Shown here one piece after another: positions 32,818-44,207 of a stretch of DNA of 64,000 nucleotides. Position 1 is the first letter of the stretch. Each line of letters starts with the position of its first letter. The position numbers were made by a program, and so were the translations under genes. The notes beneath the pieces were generated by a model. That model was given only the letters and a program-made list of their open reading frames with translations, was not told the origin of the DNA and did no database searches. The DNA lies in contig NZ_AKKU01000011.1 in NCBI RefSeq assembly GCF_000272005.1, forward strand, positions 124,001 to 188,000. Reading direction: 5' to 3'. This DNA comes from Alishewanella agri BL06. GTDB taxonomy: Bacteria; Pseudomonadota; Gammaproteobacteria; Enterobacterales; Alteromonadaceae.

Positions 32818-34026
32818 CTACAGCACCCTTACCATACCAATCAGGGCGCCAGCCAGCACCAGTAACCAGGCTGGCAGGCGCCAGAATTGCAGCGCAATAA
32901 AACCCAGCAGTGCCAGCGCAAAATCAGTGGCTCCGAACACACTACTTTGCCAGATTGGCTGATATAGCGCTGACAGCAAAATGCCGGTGACACTGGCCCC
33001 CACGCCGGCCATTAAGCGACTGACGTTATTAGAAGCGCGCAGTTTCTGCCAGTACGGCAGCACCGCAGCCAATACCAGAAAAGACGGCAAAAAGATGGCC
33101 AGCAGCGCCACTACCCCACCCCAAACACCGCTTAGTTCACCATTACTGGCGGCACCTAAAAAAGCGGCAAAGGTAAACAAGGGGCCGGGTACCGCCTGCG
33201 CTGCCGCATAACCGGCAATAAAGTTATCAGCACTGACGAGATCTGTTGGCACCACTTCGGCCTGTAACAGTGGCAACACCACATGCCCCCCGCCAAACAC
33301 CAGCGCACCAGCGCGGTAGAAAATATCGAACAGTGTGACAACAGTACCGGGATAGAGCTGCGCCACGAGCGGTAAACCGAATAACAAGACCAGAAATAAC
33401 AGACCGTAAGCCTTGGCTGCCGTACTCGACACACTAAGAGGTAAGGCAGAGGCCGCAGCGGCTGCTTCCTGCTTTAACAGAAAATAACCAAGCAGCGCGC
33501 CAAGCAGGATTACCACAGGTTGCAACCAGATAACCGGAAATAACAGCAACAACACCGCACTTAGCGCCATAATGCTGACTTTTGGCACCGTATTACATAA
33601 ACTTTTTGCCATCCCCCAAACCGCATGAGCGACCACAGCAACCGCCACCAGCTTTAAGCCCTGCAAGGCACCCTGCAACAGCGGGCTTTGTAAAATCGCC
33701 AAACTTAGGCTAAACGCAATCAAAACCCCAGCCGATGGCAGCGTAAAACCAAGCCAGGCAGCCAGCGCACCGCGATAGCGACCACGTAATAAACCAAGCG
33801 CTAAACCAACCTGGCTACTGGCCGGGCCGGGTAAGAACTGGCATAACGCCACCAGTTCAGCATAGTCGCGTTCAGTCAGCCATTTACGTTTTTCAACAAA
33901 CTCGGTACGAAAATAACCAAGATGCGCTACCGGCCCGCCGAAGGAGGTTAGGCCCAGTACCAGGAAAATCCGGAAGATGCTCCAGAAGTTGTTATGTATC
34001 GGTTCGTTCATTACTTCGTTTGTCAT
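32818..34026 (-). CDS. chrA: Chromate transporter ChrA
   Basis: A 402-aa long-chain CHR family transporter with two homologous membrane halves. The first carries FLVLGLTSFGGPVAHLGYF, FVEKRKWLTERDYAELVAL and LPGPASSQVGLALG; the second carries FDIFYRAGALVFGGGHVVLP and GYAAAQAVPGPLFTFAAFLG. These are the duplicated CHR motifs. The family exports chromate, lowering its toxicity, although some members may move other anions. AGGAT precedes the ATG. The 3' end meets the M1 gene; the 5' side faces the repeat region. Confidence 0.94.
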   Translation of the reverse strand: MTNEVMNEPIHNNFWSIFRIFLVLGLTSFGGPVAHLGYFRTEFVEKRKWLTERDYAELVALCQFLPGPASSQVGLALGLLRGRYRGALAAWLGFTLPSAGVLIAFSLSLAILQSPLLQGALQGLKLVAVAVVAHAVWGMAKSLCNTVPKVSIMALSAVLLLLFPVIWLQPVVILLGALLGYFLLKQEAAAAASALPLSVSSTAAKAYGLLFLVLLFGLPLVAQLYPGTVVTLFDIFYRAGALVFGGGHVVLPLLQAEVVPTDLVSADNFIAGYAAAQAVPGPLFTFAAFLGAASNGELSGVWGGVVALLAIFLPSFLVLAAVLPYWQKLRASNNVSRLMAGVGASVTGILLSALYQPIWQSSVFGATDFALALLGFIALQFWRLPAWLLVLAGALIGMVRVL

Positions 34027-34119
34027 GCAGATCCTGCTTCAATCTCGATAATTTTAAAAATGCCTACTGCTGAAACCACATTGTCGGACGGGCGAGTCGT
34101 CATGCCTCACCGATATTAG
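34027..34119. other. Short unique spacer upstream of chrA
   Basis: No gene is supported. This spacer should hold the chrA promoter on the minus strand, but no strong -35/-10 pair stands out. It ends where repeat module A1 begins. The whole gene-free stretch from 34027 to 34833 consists of this spacer, module A1, the composite insert ending in module B1, and the terminator of the S9 gene. Confidence 0.5.
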
Positions 34120-34242
34120 TTAAGCCCTTAGCTGCGGTAGAATTTTCGTAACAGCAGCAGGGATGCTGCGGAGGCTGAAAGGGCACAGGGATGTGATCCT
34201 TGAAGCCGGTGGAGAAAATTACTACCCTGCTAAGGGCGCTGC
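34120..34242 (+). repeat. Dispersed repeat module A, copy 1 (CsrA-type hairpins)
   Basis: A 123-bp module that recurs at 42851-42973 with a single base difference. Its ends form an inverted repeat, GCCCTTAGC against GCTAAGGGC, continued by GGTAGAATTTTC against GAAAATTACTACC. Inside are two hairpins: GCAGC-AGGGAT-GCTGC (34154-34169) and CAC-AGGGAT-GTG (34184-34195), the second flanked by an AAGG/CCTT stem. Both loops give CAGGGATG, fitting the CANGGANG loop bound by CsrA/RsmE proteins. A short frame starting at ATG 34163 is shared by both copies but is not considered a gene. Confidence 0.85.
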
Positions 34243-34296
34243 GCTAGTCTGGACGCTGCAGAGTCGATATATGAGCATCCGGCGGCTAAACGCGCC

Positions 34297-34685
34297 GTAC
34301 AACTTTCCTGGGGCACGCCGTGAACCCATCCCTGGGGGATTATAAACTTCATCCTGAAGTTTACCCTGCGGGCCAGCGCAAGCGCTGTTCAAATTCGTTC
34401 CCGACGAATTTGTCTCTTTGGAATCCATGCCAAAGACGTCCCCAGAAAAGTGTACTCTGCATTTACCGCCTCGCTAAGCAACTACAGCAACCGCAATCTT
34501 CAATCGAAGCTCGCTGGATGTCATGCATACTTTCTGAAAATACTGGTGGTAGCACGATCGTGAACGAGGTGGTAAGCATTCCGTGCACTTTGTAAGGGAA
34601 TGTATTTTTCAGGGATGAAAAATGCAAGCGTACAGGGATGTATTCACAGCGTGTCCCGTCAAAGTTGTACGGTGTGCTTGCCACC
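34297..34685. mobile_element. MITE-like composite insert with inverted ends
   Basis: The segment begins GTACAACTTT (34297) and carries the inverted GTACAACTTT at 34661-34670. The first 38 bases of the two ends, read inward, match at 31 positions. It splits the palindrome GAGCATCCGGCG (34273-34284) from CCGGATGCTC (34684-34693), which is intact at 43022-43053. Inside are hairpins with minus-strand loops AGGGAT (34328-34333), AGGAT (34351-34355, 8-bp stem) and CGGGA (34399-34403, 8-bp stem), plus module B1. No transposase is encoded. The insertion reading is inference from the split palindrome. Confidence 0.55.
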
Positions 34686-34686
34686 G
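34564..34686 (-). repeat. Dispersed repeat module B, copy 1 (CsrA-type hairpins)
   Basis: A 123-bp module identical at every base to 42676-42798 in the opposite orientation. On the plus strand it holds ATTTTTC-AGGGAT-GAAAAAT (34604-34623) and TAC-AGGGAT-GTA (34631-34642). The latter extends to GTACAGGGATGT, an exact match to the CsrA selection consensus RUACARGGAUGU. A further hairpin uses CATTCC and GGAATG at the left end. Confidence 0.85.
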
Positions 34687-34784
34687 GATGCTCTATTCCA
34701 GACGTTGCAGCGTTCAAACCGGAGTACAACAACCTTAACATACTGATTTTTTATAACAAAAATATGACTCTCATAACACTGAAT

Positions 34785-34813
34785 AAAAAACGCCGCAGTA
34801 ATTAGCTGCGGCG
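34785..34813 (-). terminator. Terminator of the S9 peptidase gene
   Basis: Read on the minus strand, CGCCGCAG (34813-34806) pairs with CTGCGGCG (34798-34791) around a 7-base loop and is followed by TTTTTT (34790-34785). It lies about 20 bases after the stop codon of the S9 gene. Confidence 0.85.
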
Positions 34814-34833
34814 CTTGAATCAAACAACAGCCG

Positions 34834-36756
34834 CTACTTCAAATGCGTTTGCAAGAAACTTAAATACGCCTCCTGCGCTTTAATCCGGTTAGCTTTTACC
34901 GCAAACCCATGACCTTCGTCCGGGAACAACACATACTCCACCGGCACATTATTAGCACGGATCGCCGCCACCATCTCATCGCTTTCAACCTGTAACACCC
35001 GCGGGTCGTTAGCGCCCTGCACGACCAATACCGGGGCTTTAATATTACCGGCATGAAACAGCGGCGAAATACGGCGCAAACGTTCACCATCAACGGCCGG
35101 ATCGCCCAACTCATCGTACAGCGACTGACGGAAACTCTCCCACCATGGTGGAATACTCTCCAGCGTCCGCACCCAGTTGGTAACACCGAAGATATTAATG
35201 CCGGCATCAAACTCATCGGTAAAGGCCAGCGCCGCCATCGTCAGATAGCCACCATAGCTACCACCCATGACCACTATCTTGTCGCCATCAATCCAGTCCA
35301 GGCTTTGCAGGTACTTTTTGCCATAGACGATGTCTTGTAAGTCATCTTCACCATGCCGTTTATCATCAAGATGATAGAAAGTTTTACCGTAACCGGACGA
35401 ACCCCGGTTATTGACACCAAACACCGCATAACCATGATTGACCAGATGCTGCATCATCGCACTGTAGCCCTGGCGGGTTTGGCCGCCCGGACCACCGTGG
35501 ATCCAGATAATGCCGGGGACTTTGTTGCTGCTACTGGCCTGCTTAGGTTTATACAGTAAACCGGGAATTTCCAGGCCATCGAAACTTTTAAAGCGCTCGA
35601 TCGAGCTTTGCACCAGATGCGCGGCATCCATACCCGCAGCCAGGGTTTGCGTTAGCTGGGCCACGCTATCGGTGCCCAGACGCCAGACGAATAAGTTTGA
35701 CGGTGAGGTATCTGAGTTCACATAAAACACCATGGTGTTTTCATCGGCCGAGAAACTGACTCCACGTAAATCGCCGGCTGGATAAGCCGGCATTTGCAGT
35801 TTTTGCCCGCTGCTCAGATCGGTAATGGTTAACTCAGTGCGGGCATCGGCATTCACCCCCACCACCTGATAACGGCCTGATTTCGAGAAATACAGGAAAG
35901 AAACATCCCAATCGGCGGCGATATAGGCACTGTGTTCAGCCGTCGCCAGATCATAACGCCAGGCTTGATTAAATTCGCCATGACCATTGGTACTGTAAAT
36001 CAAGGCCTTATTATCAACGGTAAAGGTATAAGCCCCATGTTGGATATTGCCATCGGTAGGCGTAATCAACTTAGGTTCTGCTTTATCGGCCTGTAAATCG
36101 ACCAAAAACAGATCGGAGTCAGAGTTAGAGTTAGTGCGGCTAAGCGCCAGATAGCGGCCATTCGGGCTTACCGCTTCTAAATTAAAACCGGTATTGTTTT
36201 CAAACAACATGCTACGGCTGTAGTCCACACTGCTGTATTGATACAAATCGAAAAAGCGGTTATCCCGCTCGTTGGTCATAATAAAGAAATGCACATCGTC
36301 CTGATGCCAGCCCACCATCTGCGCCTTAAGCTTGTCGCCCGGTGTTAAATCTTTGCTGCTGCCATCGGGTAGTTGCACATAAACGTGGTTTAACTCATTG
36401 CCACCCTGATCAGCGGTATATAAAAAGCGATCATCCTTAGGAAACCAACTGATACCGTTATAGGCATCGCTGGTCGATTGGGTTAACTGCGTTGGGGCGC
36501 TGCCATCTACCGGATAACGGTAGACATTAAAAATACCACTGGCATCGCTGGTTACCAGTACCGCAGTGCCGTCATGACTTAGTGAAGAGCCATAGAGGGT
36601 GGTGGTGTTAAAAAAGGTTTCAGCCGAATACTGCGGCACTGTCTGACTTACCGCTGCCTGTGGTGGCGGAGTAGCCGTTTTTTGCTCTGCCGGTGGCGAG
36701 CAGGCCGCTAATAAAGCGGCGCAAGATAACGCTAAAATTGAAGCAGACCAACGCAT
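34834..36756 (-). CDS. Prolyl oligopeptidase family (S9) peptidase, lipoprotein
   Basis: A 640-aa exported S9 peptidase. The start at MRWSASILALSCAALLAACS is chosen because AGGAGAG precedes it and it opens a lipoprotein signal with lipobox LAAC (Cys19); the frame is open 58 codons further up without support. The N-terminal half is a beta propeller (about 55-390). The C-terminal alpha/beta hydrolase carries the nucleophile in GGSYGGYL (Ser near 498), Asp in GANDPRV and His in DEGHGFAV. It likely hydrolyses oligopeptides in the periplasm. The ars operon ends 80 bases upstream, and a separate promoter is presumed. Confidence 0.92.
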   Translation of the reverse strand: MRWSASILALSCAALLAACSPPAEQKTATPPPQAAVSQTVPQYSAETFFNTTTLYGSSLSHDGTAVLVTSDASGIFNVYRYPVDGSAPTQLTQSTSDAYNGISWFPKDDRFLYTADQGGNELNHVYVQLPDGSSKDLTPGDKLKAQMVGWHQDDVHFFIMTNERDNRFFDLYQYSSVDYSRSMLFENNTGFNLEAVSPNGRYLALSRTNSNSDSDLFLVDLQADKAEPKLITPTDGNIQHGAYTFTVDNKALIYSTNGHGEFNQAWRYDLATAEHSAYIAADWDVSFLYFSKSGRYQVVGVNADARTELTITDLSSGQKLQMPAYPAGDLRGVSFSADENTMVFYVNSDTSPSNLFVWRLGTDSVAQLTQTLAAGMDAAHLVQSSIERFKSFDGLEIPGLLYKPKQASSSNKVPGIIWIHGGPGGQTRQGYSAMMQHLVNHGYAVFGVNNRGSSGYGKTFYHLDDKRHGEDDLQDIVYGKKYLQSLDWIDGDKIVVMGGSYGGYLTMAALAFTDEFDAGINIFGVTNWVRTLESIPPWWESFRQSLYDELGDPAVDGERLRRISPLFHAGNIKAPVLVVQGANDPRVLQVESDEMVAAIRANNVPVEYVLFPDEGHGFAVKANRIKAQEAYLSFLQTHLK

Positions 36757-36836
36757 ATCACTCTCCTCTTGCTGTTTTTTTGTTCCAGTCCGCTTCAGTC
36801 TAGTGTAAAAAAACAACAAAAGAAAAATTAATCTGC

Positions 36837-38060
36837 TCAACCCGTTACCTGTGCCGATGTCTGACAGCGCCGCAATGCCCAGGTACAAGCCACAGCCCCG
36901 AGCAACAGTAACCCTGAGATCCACAAACACGCCACTAAACCATAGGCCTGAAACGCCCAGCCGGATAATAAAGTGCCGACTAAGCGCCCGGCCGCGTTTG
37001 CCATATAATAAAAGCCGACATCCAGCGAGACACCGTCACGATTGGCACTGGCCACAATTAAATAGCTGTGCAAACTGGAGTTAATGGCAAATACCGCACC
37101 GTAGAGCAGCAAACCGAGCAGCAGCGCCCACAGCGGCTCGCCACTAAATAGCATCGCCAGGCCGATCAGCCAGGGTAAGGCAGCCAGCACCAACGCCCAA
37201 TGCAGAGCTGTACCCGCCGCCGGTGGCGCCTTTTTACTGCTGTGGGTAAGTGCTGGCGTAAGAGCTTGCACTATGCCATAACCAATCACCCAGCAGGCTA
37301 AAAAGGCTCCGACCGCACTTTGTGACCAACCGGCGCTGCTGGCAAGATAAATAGGTAGGGCTATCACAAACCAGACATCGCGCGAGGCAAACAAACAAAA
37401 CCGCGCCGCCGATAGCCAGTTTAAACTGGCACTTTTTGACAGCAACTCGGTAAATTTGGGTTTGAAACTTTTTTTCCCAAGATCCTTTTTCAGCAGCAAC
37501 AAACTGAGGATCCACACCAGCAAGAGCGTAGCCGCCATTACGGCCATTGCGCCCTGAAATCCCAGCAACGCCAGCAATAGACCACCGAGGAAAAACCCGA
37601 CGCCCTTTAGCGCATTCTTGGAGCCGGTTAGTACCGCCACCCACTTATACAGCGCGCCTTGGGCCTCATCCGGTAGCAATAACTTGATGGCGCTTTTCGC
37701 ACTCATTTTATTCAGATCTTTGGCTATTCCCGAGATCGCTTGCGCTACCATTATCCACAGTACCGTTAGCATATCGGCAGGAACTAACAACATACTGAGC
37801 GCAATAATTTGCAGAAACAAACCGATATTCATCGTCTTGTTTAAGCCGAGCCGGGCACCGAGCCAGCCGCCGGTGAGGTTAGTTACAATCCCGAAAAACT
37901 CGTAAAACAAGAATAACGAGGCAATGGCCAGTGGCGAGTAACCCAGCTGATAAAAATGCAGCACAATCAGCATGCGCAGCGCACCATCGGTCAGCGTGAA
38001 GGCCCAGTAATTACCGGTAACGACCAGATATTGTTTGATATCGCTGCGCATAGTTATCAT
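36837..38060 (-). CDS. arsJ: Organoarsenical efflux MFS transporter ArsJ
   Basis: A 407-aa major facilitator with twelve predicted segments. VTGNYWAFTLTDGALRMLIV at the N-terminus and SGIAKDLNKMSAKSAIK are typical of ArsJ. ArsJ exports 1-arseno-3-phosphoglycerate, the unstable product made by GAPDH from arsenate, giving arsenate resistance without reduction. The GAPDH gene directly upstream supports this role. The start is placed at ATG 38060 (MITMRSDIKQYL), 8 bases after the GAPDH stop; ATG 38051 is the alternative. The frame extends upstream into the GAPDH gene, but that part is unlike ArsJ. Confidence 0.92.
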   Translation of the reverse strand: MITMRSDIKQYLVVTGNYWAFTLTDGALRMLIVLHFYQLGYSPLAIASLFLFYEFFGIVTNLTGGWLGARLGLNKTMNIGLFLQIIALSMLLVPADMLTVLWIMVAQAISGIAKDLNKMSAKSAIKLLLPDEAQGALYKWVAVLTGSKNALKGVGFFLGGLLLALLGFQGAMAVMAATLLLVWILSLLLLKKDLGKKSFKPKFTELLSKSASLNWLSAARFCLFASRDVWFVIALPIYLASSAGWSQSAVGAFLACWVIGYGIVQALTPALTHSSKKAPPAAGTALHWALVLAALPWLIGLAMLFSGEPLWALLLGLLLYGAVFAINSSLHSYLIVASANRDGVSLDVGFYYMANAAGRLVGTLLSGWAFQAYGLVACLWISGLLLLGAVACTWALRRCQTSAQVTG

Positions 38061-38068
38061 ATCGTCAT

Positions 38069-39073
38069 TTAGTCTGCCAAACCGACTAATTTCGCCAGTT
38101 CGACCGTGCGATTGGCATAACCCCATTCGTTGTCGTACCAGGCATAAATTTTTACCTGAGTACCATTTACTACCATAGTCGATAAGGCATCAATAATACT
38201 GGAGCGTGGGTCGGTTTTATAATCCACCGACACCAGCGGCCGGCTTTCATAACCCAAAATTCCTGCCAGCTCACCTTCAGCTGCATCCTTGAGCATGGCA
38301 TTCACTTCCTCGGCGGTAGTGGCGCGCTCGACTTCAAACACGCAATCCGTTAACGAGGCATTAGCCAGTGGCACCCGCACCGCATGGCCATTTAAGCGGC
38401 CCTTTAACTCCGGAAAGATCTCGGTAATAGCGGTCGCTGAACCGGTGGTGGTCGGAATTAAACTGGCACCACAAGCGCGGGCCCGGCGTAAGTCTTTATG
38501 GGGCGTATCTAAAATCGATTGCGTATTGGTTAAATCATGAATCGTGGTAATAGAGCCATGCTTAATCCCCAGTTGTTCGTGGATCACCTTAACCACCGGC
38601 GCTAAACAGTTAGTGGTACAACTGGCTGCAGTAACAATGCGATGTTCGGCGGCATTAAATAACTGCTGATTCACGCCCATCACCACATTCAGCACTCCGG
38701 CTTCTTTTACCGGTGCACTTACCACCACGCGCTTTACGCCGTGCTCCAGATAAGCTTGTAGCGCGGCTTTGGTTTTCATCTTACCCGAAGCTTCAATCAC
38801 CAGATCACAACCGGACCAGTCAGTATCGGCAATGGCTTTATTGCCGCTGACCTGAATGGTTTTGCCATTAATAAGTATGGTATCGCCAGCCGCCTCAGCT
38901 TGATGCTGCCAGCGGCCATGGACTGAGTCAAAGTTCAGTAAATGGGCAAAGGTTGCGGCATCGGCTGCCGGATCATTGATCTTTACAAACTCAAACTCTG
39001 GCCAATCAAAGGCCGCACGCAGGGCCAGGCGGCCAATCCGGCCAAAGCCGTTAATGCCAACTTTAATCGTCAT
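38069..39073 (-). CDS. ArsJ-associated glyceraldehyde-3-phosphate dehydrogenase
   Basis: A 334-aa GAPDH. It has the NAD-binding start ([19 protein letters not shown]), the catalytic Cys in [15 protein letters not shown] near residue 150 and the C-terminal [19 protein letters not shown]. In ars operons this dedicated GAPDH uses arsenate in place of phosphate to make 1-arseno-3-phosphoglycerate, which ArsJ pumps out. Its position between a phosphatase-like gene and arsJ, all on the minus strand with short gaps, marks it as the ars copy rather than the glycolytic one. AGAAGGA precedes the ATG. Confidence 0.93.
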
Positions 39074-39088
39074 CAGTAAATCCTTCTG

Positions 39089-39583
39089 TCAGGCGCCAGC
39101 TAGCGCGTTAAAATAATCAATATGTGGCGGCAGGCTTAGCGCATGCGGCCGGATCTGCTTAATACTGCTCAGGATCTGCGCTTTAGCGACACCACGTTCG
39201 GCCAGCAATTGTGCTGCCGCCAGCGAAGTGCGACCTGAGCCGCCTTTGCAATGAATCGCCACGCTCTGCTGCTGGCTAAGTAACTGCTGTATGGCGGGGC
39301 CGGCACTTTGCCAGGCCTGCTGAAAGGCTTCACCCGGCGCACAGTCATCTTCTATCGGGCAATGAAACCAGGTTAAGCCAGCTGCCGCGCATTGTTCGGC
39401 TAGCTCCGTGACCTGAAGCGCCGCCAGCTCAGTTGCCGGTGTTAGCGTTAATACGGCTTTGGCACCCGCAGCTTTTAGTGTCGCCAATGCCTCAGCCACA
39501 GAGGTGCCCTTGGTACCGGGGCAAGGGGTAAAAATCAGCCGAACCTGCTCCAGCAGTAATACATCGTATGGATGAGCCATCAT
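39089..39583 (-). CDS. Dual-specificity/tyrosine phosphatase-like protein in the ars operon
   Basis: A 164-aa protein with a Cys-based phosphatase P-loop: HCKGGSGRTSLA near residue 110 fits HCx5R. An acidic WFHCPIEDDCAPGE segment upstream could supply the general acid. The layout resembles the CDKN3-like dual-specificity group. It sits 15 bases before the GAPDH gene and 24 bases after the ArsC-ArsR gene, so it belongs to the arsenate operon. Its role is not established; Cys-x5-Arg enzymes can reduce arsenate, and a phosphatase acting on a phospho- or arseno-sugar is another option. AAGGA precedes tandem ATG codons. Confidence 0.82.
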   Translation of the reverse strand: MMAHPYDVLLLEQVRLIFTPCPGTKGTSVAEALATLKAAGAKAVLTLTPATELAALQVTELAEQCAAAGLTWFHCPIEDDCAPGEAFQQAWQSAGPAIQQLLSQQQSVAIHCKGGSGRTSLAAAQLLAERGVAKAQILSSIKQIRPHALSLPPHIDYFNALAGA

Positions 39584-39607
39584 GGTTCCTTATTGTCGAT
39601 TACAACA

Positions 39608-40384
39608 TTAACAAGCGGTTTGACATTGCTGCAGGCGCTGTGGCCGTTCGCCCATCGCGTTCAGGTTAGCTAATAGCGGCTGGATGCTACTGGCGCTGGC
39701 AGTGGCAAATTGCTTAATGCTTTCGCTGGCCCACAACGGTAAATCTTCGGCCAGGCGATAATACACCCACTGCCCTTGCCGGCGGTCTTGTAACAAGCCG
39801 GCTTTACGGAGCATTGCTAAATGCCGGGAAATTTTTGGCTGCGTTTCGACAAGGGCTGCCGTCAGCTCACAGACACATAGCTCCTGCTCCGCCTGGATCA
39901 GTAGTACGGTATTAAGACGGGTGTCGTCAGACAGTAATTTGCACAGATTTAGTGCGGTGAGAGGCTCGTGCTGATGCTGTTTGTCATACAGCAGCACAAA
40001 CATACTTAGCCGTTCAGCCAGTTCATGTAAGGTCGTTTCAAAGGCTTTGAGGGTGCCTTGTTGTTTGGGATCGCTAAAATCCCAGGCCAGCAAATGTTTG
40101 GCTGAAATATCATGGGCACACTCAGCAGCGGTTTTGCTGCACAGTACGATGGCATAATCGAAATGCTGCTGCCGGTGCGCGCTCAGGGGCTTGGAAAACA
40201 AACCTTCGGTGCTAATGCCATGCGAGTTTAATACTGCCAATGCCCGGCTATCGGCGGTGCCCGGGTGGCTACCGGCGCTATAAACTTCAAAACGATCGGC
40301 ATATTTATGTCGGGCTATCGCTTCCGCCATGATGGAGCGCGCCGAATTTTCGGTGCAGATAAAAAGAATTTTCGCTAACGCCAT
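39608..40384 (-). CDS. ArsC-ArsR fusion: LMW-phosphatase-type arsenate reductase with ArsR repressor
   Basis: A 258-aa two-domain protein. Residues 1 to about 135 form a low-molecular-weight phosphatase/arsenate reductase domain with the P-loop FICTENSARSIMAEAI (Cys-x5-Arg-Ser). Residues about 140-235 are an ArsR winged helix: LLSDDTRLNTVLLIQAEQEL, then CVCELTAALVETQPKISRHL, where the CVC pair is the usual As(III) sensor site. The single gene therefore encodes both a reductase and the operon repressor. It is first in the ars operon, directly downstream of two overlapping palindromes. The Cys-rich tail (QQCQTAC) could add thiols for reduction. Confidence 0.9.
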   Translation of the reverse strand: MALAKILFICTENSARSIMAEAIARHKYADRFEVYSAGSHPGTADSRALAVLNSHGISTEGLFSKPLSAHRQQHFDYAIVLCSKTAAECAHDISAKHLLAWDFSDPKQQGTLKAFETTLHELAERLSMFVLLYDKQHQHEPLTALNLCKLLSDDTRLNTVLLIQAEQELCVCELTAALVETQPKISRHLAMLRKAGLLQDRRQGQWVYYRLAEDLPLWASESIKQFATASASSIQPLLANLNAMGERPQRLQQCQTAC

Positions 40385-40410
40385 GCTGAACCCATGTACG
40401 TAAAAAACAA

Positions 40411-40446
40411 ATATATACTGAATTGTATATATGTTTTTTCATATAT
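40411..40446. promoter_or_regulatory. Two overlapping ArsR-type operators of the ars operon
   Basis: ATATATAC (40411-40418) and GTATATAT (40425-40432) form a perfect 8-bp palindrome with a 6-base spacer. ATATATG (40427-40433) and CATATAT (40440-40446) form a second 7-bp palindrome, again with a 6-base spacer, overlapping the first. Such ATA-rich inverted repeats are typical ArsR/SmtB sites. They lie 27-62 bases upstream of the ArsC-ArsR ATG, where they would cover the promoter. Confidence 0.7.
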
Positions 40447-40485
40447 CAAGTCATGGCGCTAAACTTCATAAAACTGTCATAAAGG

Positions 40486-41385
40486 CTAGCTTCTTAACGC
40501 CAATATCCGTTTGGCGCCCAACAACACGATAGCGCCAACAACAGCCCCTACCAGCAAATCCGGATAAGCCGAGCCGGTCCATGCGACTAACAACGCGCCC
40601 AGAATCACTCCAAAATTAATCAATACATCGTTAGCCGAAAAGATCCAGCTGGCTTTCATATGAACGCCACCCTGCCGATGTTTAGCTAGTAACATCAAGC
40701 AACTAACGTTTGCGACTAACGCCAGACTGGCCATGCCCAGCATCAGCGTTGACTGCGGCTCACTGCCATATAGTGCTCTGCGTACAACCTCGGCTAACAC
40801 GCCAAGCGCCAGAATCGCCTGTAACCAGCCTGCCACTTTGGCAGCCCGAAGCTGTAACTGTAATCCTTTGCCGACGGCGAATAAGGCCAGCAAATAAACG
40901 GCTGCATCAGCAAACATGTCTAATGAGTCGGCGAGCAGCGCCATTGACTGCGCGACTATGCCAACAGCAAACTCCAGCACGAACATCATAGCGTTGATTG
41001 CCAGCAACCAATAAAGTGTACTTCTTTCAGCTGCCGGATCAGCGGTAAAGCTTTGGCGATCAGCTGCAGATGCGGCACGTGAGATGGAAAGCTGTGCTCC
41101 CAACCCCAAACTTTGCAGCTTTTTGGTGATCATCGTTGCATCGCCCTGATGCAAGATCGCCAGCTGACGCTGTGCCAGATCAAACTCGAGTTGCACAATC
41201 CCATCCAGGTCCTGCAATGCCAGACGGATTAATCGCTCTTCCGATGGACAATCCATTTTCGGAATATGATAAAGGCTATGCCACTGAGCATCGTGGCTGG
41301 CGGCTTTAGTAACAGGCTCTTGCTCAGGCTGCACTTTTGCACAACAAGCTGATTGCTGGCAATCCGATTGATTCTCTCTGGTCAC
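40486..41385 (-). CDS. CDF-type cation transporter with Cys-rich and HMA-like N-terminus (GTG start)
   Basis: A 299-aa protein. The first 30 residues are Cys-rich (DCQQSACCAK). About 38-100 resembles a heavy-metal-associated domain with PKMDCPSEERLIRLAL in place of the CxxC loop. The C-terminal half is a six-segment cation diffusion facilitator: ALLADSLDMFADAAVYLLAL carries the Asp-rich TM2 site, and IFSANDVLINFGVILG the TM5 site. It probably exports a soft or divalent metal. The start is GTG with GAGG 7 bases upstream. It ends 101 bases before the ars operon but has its own promoter region. Confidence 0.82.
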   Translation of the reverse strand: MTRENQSDCQQSACCAKVQPEQEPVTKAASHDAQWHSLYHIPKMDCPSEERLIRLALQDLDGIVQLEFDLAQRQLAILHQGDATMITKKLQSLGLGAQLSISRAASAADRQSFTADPAAERSTLYWLLAINAMMFVLEFAVGIVAQSMALLADSLDMFADAAVYLLALFAVGKGLQLQLRAAKVAGWLQAILALGVLAEVVRRALYGSEPQSTLMLGMASLALVANVSCLMLLAKHRQGGVHMKASWIFSANDVLINFGVILGALLVAWTGSAYPDLLVGAVVGAIVLLGAKRILALRS

Positions 41386-41452
41386 GGTAATACCTCAACT
41401 GCTGCATATTAGCTGTTACTGTAACACCTGACCCCCAGCCATTGTAAAGTGG

Positions 41453-42505
41453 CTAAAACGGTAGTGAGTGCTGGCGCAGAAATTCGGTTACGCCAGCCAA
41501 TAGCTCGTGACTTAATGTCAGCTCAAAGGCGGCCAGATTTTCTGCTAACTGGCTGGTACTGGTGGCGCCGATAATGGTCGAACTGACACCATCAACCTGA
41601 TTCACCCAGGCCAGCGCCAATTGCGCCGCGCTTAGCTGATGGGCGGCAGCCAGTTCACAAAAAGCACGGATCGCCGCATTTGACTCTGGTGTGTCGCGAA
41701 ATAAACCATTGCGCTGCACCAGGGTCCAGCGGCTGGCAGCCGGTCGTTGCCCGTCCAGATACTTACCGGTTAGGGCACCACCTGCCAGCGGTGACCAGGG
41801 TAAATAGGCGATATTCTCGTGCTGGCATTGCTCAATTAGATAGGGCCAGTCTTTGGTATGCAGCGGGCCAAACTCGTTTTGAATCGAGACCATCCGCGGT
41901 AGGTTATGCTGTGCGCTGAGCTTTAGGTACTGGCTAATCCCCCAGGGCGTTTCATTCGACAGGCCGCAATAGCGGATCTTGCCAGCCTGCACCAGCTTGC
42001 CAAGCGTCTCCAGAATCGCCAGCATCTCTGCTTGCTGCGCTATGCTATCCGTTTCACTAAAGCGTACTTGATTCACGGCATGCCGGCCAAAGTGCGGCGA
42101 ACGGCGATTTGGCCAGTGTAGCTGGTATACATCGATATAGTCTGTCTGTAACCGCTTAAGCGAGCCGTCGACCGCAGCGACCAGACTTTGCGGGCTAATA
42201 TCGCTCCCGTCGCGAATATGTGCCAGGCCGTTGCCGGCGATCTTGGTAGCAAGCACTAACTGCTCTCGTTTGGCGCTATTACGGCTTAACCAGTTGCCAA
42301 TAATCTGCTCGGTGGCGCCATAGGTTTCTGGCCGCGGTGGAATCGCATACATTTCTGCAGTGTCGATAAAATTCACGCCGGCATCCAGTGCCAGCGCCAG
42401 TTGCGCATCGGCATCTGCCTGGGTATTTTGCTGGCCCCAGGTCATGGTACCCAGACAAACCCGCGATACCCGCAAGCCGCTGCTGCCTAAAGTGGTGTAT
42501 TGCAT
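41453..42505 (-). CDS. tas: NADP(H)-dependent aldo/keto reductase, Tas-like
   Basis: A 350-aa member of the aldo/keto reductase superfamily closest by eye to E. coli Tas: YTTLGSSGLRVSRVCLGTMT at the start, FIDTAEMYAIPPRPETYGAT, NWLSRNSAKREQLVLATKIA and LKRLQTDYIDVYQLHWPNR. The catalytic Asp, Tyr, Lys and His positions are all present (DTAEMY, ATKIA, LHWP). It reduces carbonyl compounds; the natural substrate is uncertain. It stands alone, downstream in orientation from module B2 and upstream of the CDF gene. Confidence 0.9.
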   Translation of the reverse strand: MQYTTLGSSGLRVSRVCLGTMTWGQQNTQADADAQLALALDAGVNFIDTAEMYAIPPRPETYGATEQIIGNWLSRNSAKREQLVLATKIAGNGLAHIRDGSDISPQSLVAAVDGSLKRLQTDYIDVYQLHWPNRRSPHFGRHAVNQVRFSETDSIAQQAEMLAILETLGKLVQAGKIRYCGLSNETPWGISQYLKLSAQHNLPRMVSIQNEFGPLHTKDWPYLIEQCQHENIAYLPWSPLAGGALTGKYLDGQRPAASRWTLVQRNGLFRDTPESNAAIRAFCELAAAHQLSAAQLALAWVNQVDGVSSTIIGATSTSQLAENLAAFELTLSHELLAGVTEFLRQHSLPF

Positions 42506-42675
42506 ATGTTGCTCTGTATTCAGGGAAATAAGCGGACTATACCAGATTGCAGGGGGTTTAGATCAGTAGTGATTTGGTTGTTACTACCTTAAGAATCCTC
42601 AAATCCGTCGTCTACGGGTGAACTATCAAGTTATCCCCATCCGGCGTTAGAGATAGAGTCCCAGATCTGTGCATA
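42506..42675. other. Unique spacer upstream of the aldo/keto reductase gene
   Basis: No gene is supported in the 559-base stretch 42506-43064. This first part is unique sequence and should hold the aldo/keto reductase promoter on the minus strand; no strong promoter is obvious. The rest of the stretch is module B2, module A2 and a perfect 12-bp palindrome. Confidence 0.5.
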
Positions 42676-42798
42676 CGGTGGCAAGCACACCGTACAACTT
42701 TGACGGGACACGCTGTGAATACATCCCTGTACGCTTGCATTTTTCATCCCTGAAAAATACATTCCCTTACAAAGTGCACGGAATGCTTACCACCTCGT
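42676..42798 (+). repeat. Dispersed repeat module B, copy 2
   Basis: The exact reverse complement of 34564-34686 over 123 bases. The two CsrA-type loops are on the minus strand here, with CATCCCTG at 42722-42729 and 42745-42752. The left end reads GGTGGCAAGCACACC before GTACAACTTT, showing that the module runs past the inverted end seen in copy 1. Confidence 0.85.
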
Positions 42799-42850
42799 CT
42801 TATATCTGCTGTTCTCTATGATATTTTTCGTGATGCATACCAGATACTAT

Positions 42851-42973
42851 TTAAGCCCTTGGCTGCGGTAGAATTTTCGTAACAGCAGCAGGGATGCTGC
42901 GGAGGCTGAAAGGGCACAGGGATGTGATCCTTGAAGCCGGTGGAGAAAATTACTACCCTGCTAAGGGCGCTGC
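42851..42973 (+). repeat. Dispersed repeat module A, copy 2
   Basis: Matches 34120-34242 at 122 of 123 bases, same orientation; the one change falls in the left inverted arm. CAGGGATG loops lie at 42889-42896 and 42917-42924 on the plus strand. An open frame at 42894-43355 crosses this repeat and the hydrolase gene and is not a gene. Confidence 0.85.
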
Positions 42974-43021
42974 TCCGATCTCAAAGCTACTGTTAGTCAT
43001 CGTTACACAGATTTTAATTCC

Positions 43022-43053
43022 GAGCATCCGGCGGCTAAACGCGCCGGATGCTC
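43022..43053. repeat. Perfect 12-bp palindromic hairpin
   Basis: GAGCATCCGGCG (43022-43033), loop GCTAAACG, CGCCGGATGCTC (43042-43053). The left arm and loop recur at 34273-34296, about 30 bases after module A1, but there the right arm is displaced by about 390 bases. It lies just past the 3' end of the hydrolase gene; no T run follows on either strand. Confidence 0.85.
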
Positions 43054-43064
43054 AGCTCCCAACG

Positions 43065-44207
43065 CTAATGATTATCTGCAGCAGCAGGCTTAGCAAACAC
43101 CTCCTCCAGCCAACGCCATACCCGCTGCTGCTGCGCCGCCGAAAACTGATGCCCGTACTCCGGCCAAAGCTCAGTCACCAGCTTTTCGCCGGCACCATGC
43201 GCCTGCCAGATTTGTCGCATCGTGGCAAAAGCCTGCTCAGTGCCGGCCGCAGGCATCAGACGATCTTTAGCACCACTGATAAACAATGCCGGTTTAGGTG
43301 CTGCTATGCCCGCCAGATGCGGGTAATCCAGTTTCGCTGCCAAACCGGGATGTAACATCCAGAACGCCGTTTGGCCGCGTAATTGATTATTGCCCGGCGT
43401 CATAGCAGTATCACTGGTGGTCATCCAGCTAATGGTCGCCGCGGCTTTGATATCATCCGTCAGTGCCGCCAGTTGCCAGGCCCGAAACCCGCCCATTGAA
43501 AAACCCAATGCCGCAATGCGTGTATTATCGACCTGCGGCAGCTGGGCAAGAAAGGCTGCCAACCGCAAGTCTTCATAAGCCGCCAAACCGGCCAGCGAGC
43601 GCCCGAGCTGAAAAAAATTCGCGGCCAGCGCCTGCTGGGCATCGGCATTTAACGGTCCCCGTTCACCAAAACCCAAGGAGTCCGCTGCCAGCACCAGATA
43701 CCCCTGAGCCGCTAACTCATCACCGATAAAACGGCCATCGTAATAACGTTTAGTCCAGGCCTCCGCCTTGGCAAGATCGGGATCCCTGGCAAAGGGTTTG
43801 ATCAGCTTGGCTTTACCAATTAAAAAATAAGCGCCGTGATCATGTAGCAGCAGTAACGCCGGGAAAGGCCCCTCACCTGCCGGGCTCAGCACCGAAACGG
43901 TAACCCGGTTTTCTGGTGTCAGATTAAGCTGCCAGCGCTCGGCCTGATAGCCATCGCGCTGCTCAACCATCAGTTGTTCAGCCGCAAAATCCAGTGGCTG
44001 TTCAGGCCACAGCAGTGCGTCGCGCAGCAGTTGCCGCGCCTCAGTACGCCACAGCTGAATTGACTGAGCGCTATCCGGGCGCCAGGCGGCACTAAACTGT
44101 TGCTCTGCTTTCAGCTGCTGATAAAAACCCGGTAACTGCTGCGCCAGAATCTCTGCCGAAAGCGGCGCAGCAAAGGTTAACACCAGTACACTTAGCAATA
44201 CTCTCAA
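43065..44207 (-). CDS. Exported alpha/beta hydrolase, acetyl-xylan-esterase-like (TTG start)
   Basis: A 380-aa secreted hydrolase. The signal peptide (MRVLLSVLVLTFAAPLSAEI) begins at a TTG codon with GGAGAG 6 bases upstream. The alpha/beta hydrolase core shows LLLHDHGAYFLIGK, GYLVLAADSLGFGERG, the nucleophile in AALGFSMGGFRAWQLA, Asp in FISGAKDRLMPAAG and His in PEYGHQFSAAQQ. It resembles the Abhydrolase_7/acetyl-xylan-esterase group. It is divergent from a PL10 pectate lyase gene, so it may remove ester groups from pectin; that is inference from position. Confidence 0.82.
   Translation of the reverse strand: MRVLLSVLVLTFAAPLSAEILAQQLPGFYQQLKAEQQFSAAWRPDSAQSIQLWRTEARQLLRDALLWPEQPLDFAAEQLMVEQRDGYQAERWQLNLTPENRVTVSVLSPAGEGPFPALLLLHDHGAYFLIGKAKLIKPFARDPDLAKAEAWTKRYYDGRFIGDELAAQGYLVLAADSLGFGERGPLNADAQQALAANFFQLGRSLAGLAAYEDLRLAAFLAQLPQVDNTRIAALGFSMGGFRAWQLAALTDDIKAAATISWMTTSDTAMTPGNNQLRGQTAFWMLHPGLAAKLDYPHLAGIAAPKPALFISGAKDRLMPAAGTEQAFATMRQIWQAHGAGEKLVTELWPEYGHQFSAAQQQRVWRWLEEVFAKPAAADNH

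Follow-up and report, generated by a model that had tools for sequence, protein, structure and literature searches.

Two intergenic stretches of the window (the whole 64,000-nucleotide stretch of Alishewanella agri BL06 DNA that was analysed) carry hairpins that repeat one hexaloop on changing stems, which raises the question of what keeps the loop. The CsrA/RsmE binding consensus is a CANGGANG hairpin loop, and the CsrA selection consensus is RUACARGGAUGU. An earlier note had described ten such stem-loops in the two stretches and read them as sites of the CsrA/RsmA type. Our counts confirm the ten hairpins: CAGGGATG occurs nine times in the window, always within the two stretches (expectation 1.65; no more than 5 in any of 100 dinucleotide shuffles), and all nine, together with one CAGGATG, are hairpin loops of palindromic modules, with stems of 3 to 10 pairs when the closing pair is counted. 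The sequence at 34630-34641, GTACAGGGATGT, does fit RUACARGGAUGU exactly, as had been stated. CAGGATG is found 13 times in the window against 7.06 expected, a count reached by 3 of 100 shuffles, and only once within the two stretches, so that this motif alone is not notable. The two stretches, 34124-34691 and 42671-42973, resolve into five elements in opposing orientations, with the following features.

34124-34242, plus strand: module A, a palindrome around two AGGGAT hairpins, with an end-to-end TwoAYGGAY match below threshold
34158-34165 and 34186-34193, plus strand: the two loops of module A, including the closing pair
34224-34237, minus strand: terminator-like site inside module A
About 34281-34470, minus strand: composite element with B-type arms and a decayed CATGGATT hairpin, placed by its R1 match and the third-hairpin survey, limits set by eye
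34306-34376, minus strand: R1 match of the composite element, 41.7 bits
34327-34334, minus strand: CAGGGATG hairpin of the composite element
34350-34356, minus strand: CAGGATG hairpin loop of the composite element, on a 9-pair stem
34390-34412, minus strand: CGGGA hairpin of the composite element; read on the plus strand, a terminator-like site
34564-34691, plus strand: module B, a palindrome around two AGGGAT hairpins (34610-34617 and 34633-34640)
34587-34661, plus strand: R1 match of module B, 87.6 bits
34630-34641, plus strand: GTACAGGGATGT, within module B
34788-34816, minus strand: terminator-like hairpin between the first array and the gene at 34834-36930
42671-42798, minus strand: second copy of module B, 99.2% identical to 34564-34691
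42701-42775, minus strand: R1 match of the second module B, 87.6 bits
42855-42973, plus strand: second copy of module A, 95% identical to the first and head to head with the module B copy
42955-42968, minus strand: terminator-like site inside the second module A

In both modules a long outer stem surrounds two hairpins; from one loop start to the next is 28 nt in A and 23 nt in B. Since 42671-42798 and 42855-42973 repeat portions of the first stretch, the ten loops cannot be counted as independent and represent some three module types. The second-stretch modules fold better as RNA than their shuffles on either strand (z from -3.4 to -7.3), with z of -4.8 for the second copy of module A and -7.3 for that of module B; the isolated piece 34255-34345 folds no better than shuffles (z about 0.3), since it is only part of the composite element. 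Minus-strand genes flank both arrays, encoding a chromate transporter and a member of the prolyl oligopeptidase family (34834-36930, minus strand) around the first, and members of the aldo/keto reductase and abhydrolase families around the second. Relative to both flanking genes, three of the five elements lie antisense and two sense. A gene of the window gave no match in E. coli genomes.

Both modules recur elsewhere in the genome (3.49 Mb in 30 contigs): module A is complete in five copies, two more are split into four halves, and a single 24-nt stretch also matches; module B gives 20 matches, many partial, of 72 to 100% identity. Two other arrays adjoin tRNA clusters of four and three genes, respectively (L008 2071-2442 and L019 1838-2131). 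The motif itself occurs 70 times genome-wide against 9 for its reversed control, but only 21 of 60 distinct contexts, assessed by eye, lie in repeat elements and the other 39 have 1 to 4 stem pairs. We built a covariance model of the core, R1, from 13 copies of this genome (75 positions, 18 pairs), which returned 23 matches in the same genome, and matches in all 31 genomes of the window's genus, or 59 of 118 in the full set of that survey. An even draw of Gammaproteobacteria gave matches in 92 of 369 genomes, in 70 of these with E no higher than 1e-8, and the phylum (E 1e-6) gave 33 of 398, every one a gammaproteobacterium; per-genome copy numbers are lower bounds, at most 41 (survey of 118 genomes), 13 (class) and 12 (phylum) candidates having been scored in each genome. 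An exact core pattern was found in at least 119 stretches of named genomes, the matches listed including Rheinheimera, Arsukibacterium, Yersinia similis, Stenotrophomonas, Shewanella, Marinobacter, Halopseudomonas, Methylomonas and Oceanimonas, among others. Single queries of plasmids (with module B) and of phages (with a generic copy) returned no match. The window modules are members of a repeat family that is dispersed between genes in Gammaproteobacteria and has the Yersinia YPAL core.

What is conserved in this family is the loop and not the stem, and stems are altered by compensation. The 311 R1 hits (113, 74 and 124) were reduced to 278 distinct rows with at most three gaps. Across the 190 distinct copies from other genera, CANGGANG forms loop 1 in 183 and loop 2 in 175, while first-hairpin stems are of 60 distinct types. 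Any single G or A of GGA is altered in at most two of these rows, and all four bases are seen at both N positions; of the 15 exceptions in loop 2, 13 alter the closing C-G pair and keep GGA, 12 of them to T-A, all from two genomes of one genus. The earlier observation of a kept loop on a free stem holds, then, far beyond the window, and loops do not vary as freely as stems in other copies. The free and fixed positions are those of CANGGANG, which matches the CsrA/RsmE consensus and so supports the loop part of the earlier reading. Among the matches listed for papers containing the string CANGGANG, titles were mostly on Csr/Rsm or Gac; those listed for CAGGGATG held nothing related.

Within alignment A3, comprising the window's genus and two rows from other genera, GGA is never altered in loop 1 and once in loop 2 (88 rows). 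Over its 99 distinct rows 91.5% of pair cells are standard, and 463 cells are altered on both sides versus 165 in shuffles, with none of 500 shuffles as high and at most 88 such cells when pairing partners were slid, figures that lean towards structure because A3 was fitted to it. Conservation also reaches outside the loops: position 41 is A in 190 of 190 rows and position 65 is G in 187, as fixed as the loops, and a TTYAC bulge is also conserved. A41, before the second hairpin, and G65, after it, look like a conserved A.G mismatch at the hairpin foot. The outer arms of copies from other genera (L193, L198, L204, L267 and others), with a median of 26 bp by lenient extension, differ among many copies whose cores are alike; within one genome they are common to an element type.

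Since G.U on one strand corresponds to A.C, a mismatch, on the opposite one, the folding strand can be read from the alignment. On the GGA strand G.U outnumbers A.C by 62 to 24 over the 278 distinct rows (29 versus 7 in A3, 33 versus 17 elsewhere; p = 5e-5, an optimistic value given that cells are not independent and rows are related), identifying this as the strand that folds. Fold energies of the GGA strand were -59.0 against -46.3 kcal/mol for the other strand, and -58.3 against -39.4 kcal/mol. With 62 of 4987 cells, however, G.U pairs are scarcer than expected of a purely RNA-level structure, which counts against binding by CsrA as the cause. The third hairpin of composite copies, collected mostly from the window's genus and with no condition set on the loop, carries GGA in its loop in 17 of 17 distinct contexts and TCC in none; 15 of these are CNGGA pentaloops, with every base seen at N, and the remaining two contexts show an ordinary first hairpin of a different type. 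Both loop code and third hairpin indicate a protein that binds GGA loops, and to our knowledge CsrA is the only protein with such a loop code.

Carriage of the repeat tends to go together with csrA. The gene is present in 313 of the 369 class genomes and in 87 of the 92 carriers (p = 0.002 versus the rest), and among good-quality genomes in 76 of 77 carriers versus 204 of 237 non-carriers (p = 0.001); with stricter definitions of a carrier, at any genome quality, the association is weaker, p being 0.04 (E 1e-8 or better) or 0.10 (at least three copies), all of these being values that ignore relatedness among genomes. The five exceptional carriers, picked by eye from the carrier and csrA listings, gave no csrA above cut-off even by permissive search. 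Completeness does not exceed 88% in four of them; it reaches 98% in the fifth, G312, an assembly of 270 contigs with 8 copies.

Each unit folds, on one strand, into an outer stem enclosing two ANGGAN hexaloop hairpins closed mostly by C-G, to which composite units add further hairpins whose loops also hold GGA. The loops may be kept because CsrA/RsmA binds the transcript, one dimer possibly bridging both hairpins, and each transcribed copy would then be a small CsrA-binding module, acting as a sponge or as a handle on its own transcript. That the repeats carry CsrA/RsmA-binding hairpins, with loops kept for such binding, is a proposition drawn from sequence that we hold to be evenly poised. 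Loop conservation, covariation, the G.U excess, the GGA of the third hairpin and the co-occurrence with csrA speak for it, as do two published points: the independent prediction that TwoAYGGAY binds CsrA, and the transcription of Ysr224 copies in Yersinia ruckeri. Against it stand the antisense excess described below, the Ysr224 model on the opposite strand, the carriers without csrA, the weaker csrA association under stricter definitions, the scan that found no sigma-70-like site reading into the window modules, the turnover between relatives, and a seed model and choice of loci that favour intact loops; A41, G65 and the TTYAC bulge are not explained by CsrA.

The earlier note knew of no dispersed genomic repeats in this role, a statement overtaken by two described families: YPAL/RU-2 has the same core, and TwoAYGGAY was proposed to bind CsrA in 2014. 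No Rfam family matched in the window at gathering thresholds; TwoAYGGAY and Ysr224 emerged under permissive settings alone. YPAL/RU-2 is likewise a dispersed intergenic palindrome, and a published 168-nt Y. pestis copy, given in a table of PMC2759123, shares the core, with CAAGGATG and CATGGATG hairpins and GAGCCTACATGGATGTATTTACGGCGTCTTT. Compared with a hand-typed consensus, generic copies have the two CANGGATG hairpins and GAGCCTACANGGATGTATTTACGGCGTC, whereas module B deviates at several positions and module A, which has another second hairpin, at more. The conserved full length of about 168 bp is not shared: the window modules span 119 and 128 bp, beside one longer composite, their outer arms vary between copies, and they differ from YPAL/RU-2 in these arms and in first-hairpin stems and form mosaics. 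We found no link between YPAL-type repeats and CsrA in the literature searched, a scope that mostly excludes subscription papers, and nothing on point among the matches listed for CsrA combined with repeat terms.

PMC2864571 lists TwoAYGGAY (RF01731) as a probable RNA, from the human gut, Gammaproteobacteria and Clostridiales, and PMC4333381 predicted in 2014 that it binds CsrA via its two hairpins. It too has an outer stem and two GGA hairpins, and module A aligns with it end to end; the module A copies score 30.7 and 30.0 bits, however, below the gathering cut-off of 43, scores reach no more than 33.6 bits, in L022, and a whole-genome search gave no match at E up to 10. The architecture fits, but the window loops are AGGGAT rather than AYGGAY, with G at the second loop position, where G is also more frequent than a pyrimidine in the 190 rows from other genera. 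Ysr224 (RF02770) is described as multi-copy and transcribed in Yersinia ruckeri. The generic copy L030 matches it at 43.0 bits, with the model on the opposite strand, and L024 scores 29.4, against a cut-off of 70; the window stretch 34000-43100 gave no match at E up to 5. CsrB, CsrC and RsmX/Y/Z are regulatory genes present at one locus each, under promoters and terminators of their own. They share with the repeats several GGA-loop hairpins on one strand and differ from them in not being dispersed; their Rfam families had no match in the window, including a permissive search of 34000-43100. Like the GTAG and CGTC repeats of the REP/BIME type, the family consists of intergenic palindromes, often in inverted pairs, but with a branched structure of at least 119 bp and conserved loops, whereas REPs measure 20-40 bp and have a terminal tag (PMC3733652). 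As some copies have CGTC ahead of the first hairpin, REPs with a CGTC tag came into question; they are small hairpins with 8-9 bp stems and were rejected for that reason. A possible GTAG tag, read on the other strand, was discarded too, since its sequence varies along with the stem.

The main rival to CsrA binding is a mobile element acting at the DNA level, whose single-stranded hairpins, loops included, would be the substrate of a transposase without any part for CsrA. REP hairpins are thought to serve RAYT proteins in this way, and we know of no transposase partner of the present family. The dispersal of the repeats, their head-to-head pairs and their differences between close relatives, by presence or absence and by inversion, agree with such an element, and so do stems that are nearly all Watson-Crick; YPAL is described in PMC2229807 as mobile and intergenic with target duplications of 3-26 bp. 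In one genome two element types recur as head-to-head pairs resembling REP doublets (L228, L229, L230, L234, L235, L237, L239, L243 and L245). What a DNA-level element accounts for poorly is loop variation that closely follows CANGGANG, and the CNGGA loop of the third hairpin, whose retained GGA a single DNA-hairpin transposase would not predict. We regard this rival as a serious minority candidate.

Turnover can be followed at the first array. A relative of the prolyl oligopeptidase gene is present in 19 of the 31 genus genomes, and when a single locus from each of these genomes was taken with flanks of 1.5 kb, an R1 match lay only in this genome and in G016; as only G016 also shares the gene across the array, absence elsewhere is weak evidence. 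In G016 module A is mostly missing and the middle segment is inverted. Aligned with window positions 33930-34860, L447 2200-3030 displays this inversion, which sets the first array of G016, a close relative, apart from that of this genome, and recombination may take place at the inverted repeats of the array. Seven orthologous loci of another set include one without the element, one with part of it and one with a form 69 bp longer; where presence and absence were compared at an orthologous site, junction gaps ran from -6 to +9 bp, all at one site, and loss is as likely as gain, with G016 adding one further absence. That arrays change between close relatives speaks against a conserved local cis function, and the family is probably mobile. 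The split copies of module A had suggested a parent transposon of which the modules would be deletions, a candidate ruled out when the insert, at about 1450-2802 of L011 and in the corresponding part of L012, proved to belong to the IS110 family (Pfam DEDD_Tnp_IS110 and Transposase_20). The insert follows directly on CAGGGATG in the second hairpin of module A, and the two arrays concerned share 97.7% identity over 1.9 kb; the module A hairpin may be a target of this element.

Placement relative to genes bears on all of these readings. Flanking genes, called by a simple longest-ORF rule, were assigned to 275 of the 311 hits, and 148 of 172 flank clusters (225 loci) were counted: 48 convergent, 17 divergent, 27 tandem with the GGA strand sense and 56 tandem with it antisense. 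The antisense excess in co-directional contexts (56 versus 27, p = 0.002) is seen in other genera (50 versus 20) and among the 101 clusters with clearer gene calls (36 versus 18), the window's genus having no bias (9 versus 7). In antisense cases the 3' side of the element lies a median of 63 nt from the facing stop codon, a directional placement also consistent with a DNA-level element. The antisense excess does not fit a general role in sense 3' UTRs. The proposal that the copies are sense 3'-UTR elements of flanking mRNAs is not supported, given also the terminator-like site before the first array and the finding of an element near the prolyl oligopeptidase relative in only 2 of 19 genus genomes. 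The antisense excess suggests that transcription is independent of neighbours, or that sites in neighbour mRNAs are selected against; a scan of the window modules found no sigma-70-like sites reading into them. Judged by placement and turnover, the repeat is mobile and either indifferent or averse to being transcribed in sense from its neighbours.

An ordinary 3'-end palindrome, whose stem, as RNA or DNA, would stabilise or terminate neighbouring transcripts, as proposed for ERIC and YPAL, with the loop incidental, is improbable. Convergent placement is commoner than background (48/148 versus 74/360, p = 0.006, the background being 360 adjacent gene pairs of an earlier set of loci, 233 tandem, 74 convergent and 53 divergent), three terminator-like sites lie within window modules, and PMC2229807 has YPAL perhaps affecting RNA stability. 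Divergent placement, on the other hand, is not clearly depleted (17/148 versus 53/360, p = 0.4), the strongest terminator-like site around the first array is not within any module, and the loops are among the most conserved parts and the stems the least. That shared descent and search bias alone make the loops look conserved is very improbable: R1 was seeded on fixed-loop copies, many rows are related, and the loci are mostly best-scoring hits rather than a random draw, choices that favour intact loops, but GGA stays nearly constant over 60 first-hairpin stem types, the third hairpin, outside R1, shows the same GGA, and other unpaired positions invariant in the seed drift in the same hits (57, 58, 60 and 66 to 165-171 of 190, the second N of loop 1 to 157 of 190), so that the search model alone does not explain the constancy of the loops.

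We propose that CsrA sites serving the repeat's own RNA, or a sponge, would reconcile the loop code with the placement. A fuller version of CsrA binding, in which mobile repeats spread paired CsrA-binding hairpins through Gammaproteobacteria, forming a genome-wide CsrA reservoir of variable copy number whose insertions are filtered so that neighbour mRNAs tend to lack the binding strand, is offered tentatively and may well not hold. One architecture unites YPAL, TwoAYGGAY and Ysr224, which have been filed separately as a miniature insertion sequence, a candidate RNA and an sRNA, and their loop conservation gains a named and testable cause. If CsrA is not that cause, the family would be a mobile element working through DNA hairpins, with a loop code of unusual strictness, and its enzyme would have to be found. 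If it is, a global regulator could be tuned by how many copies of an intergenic repeat a genome carries, and such repeats would count among the targets of CsrA.
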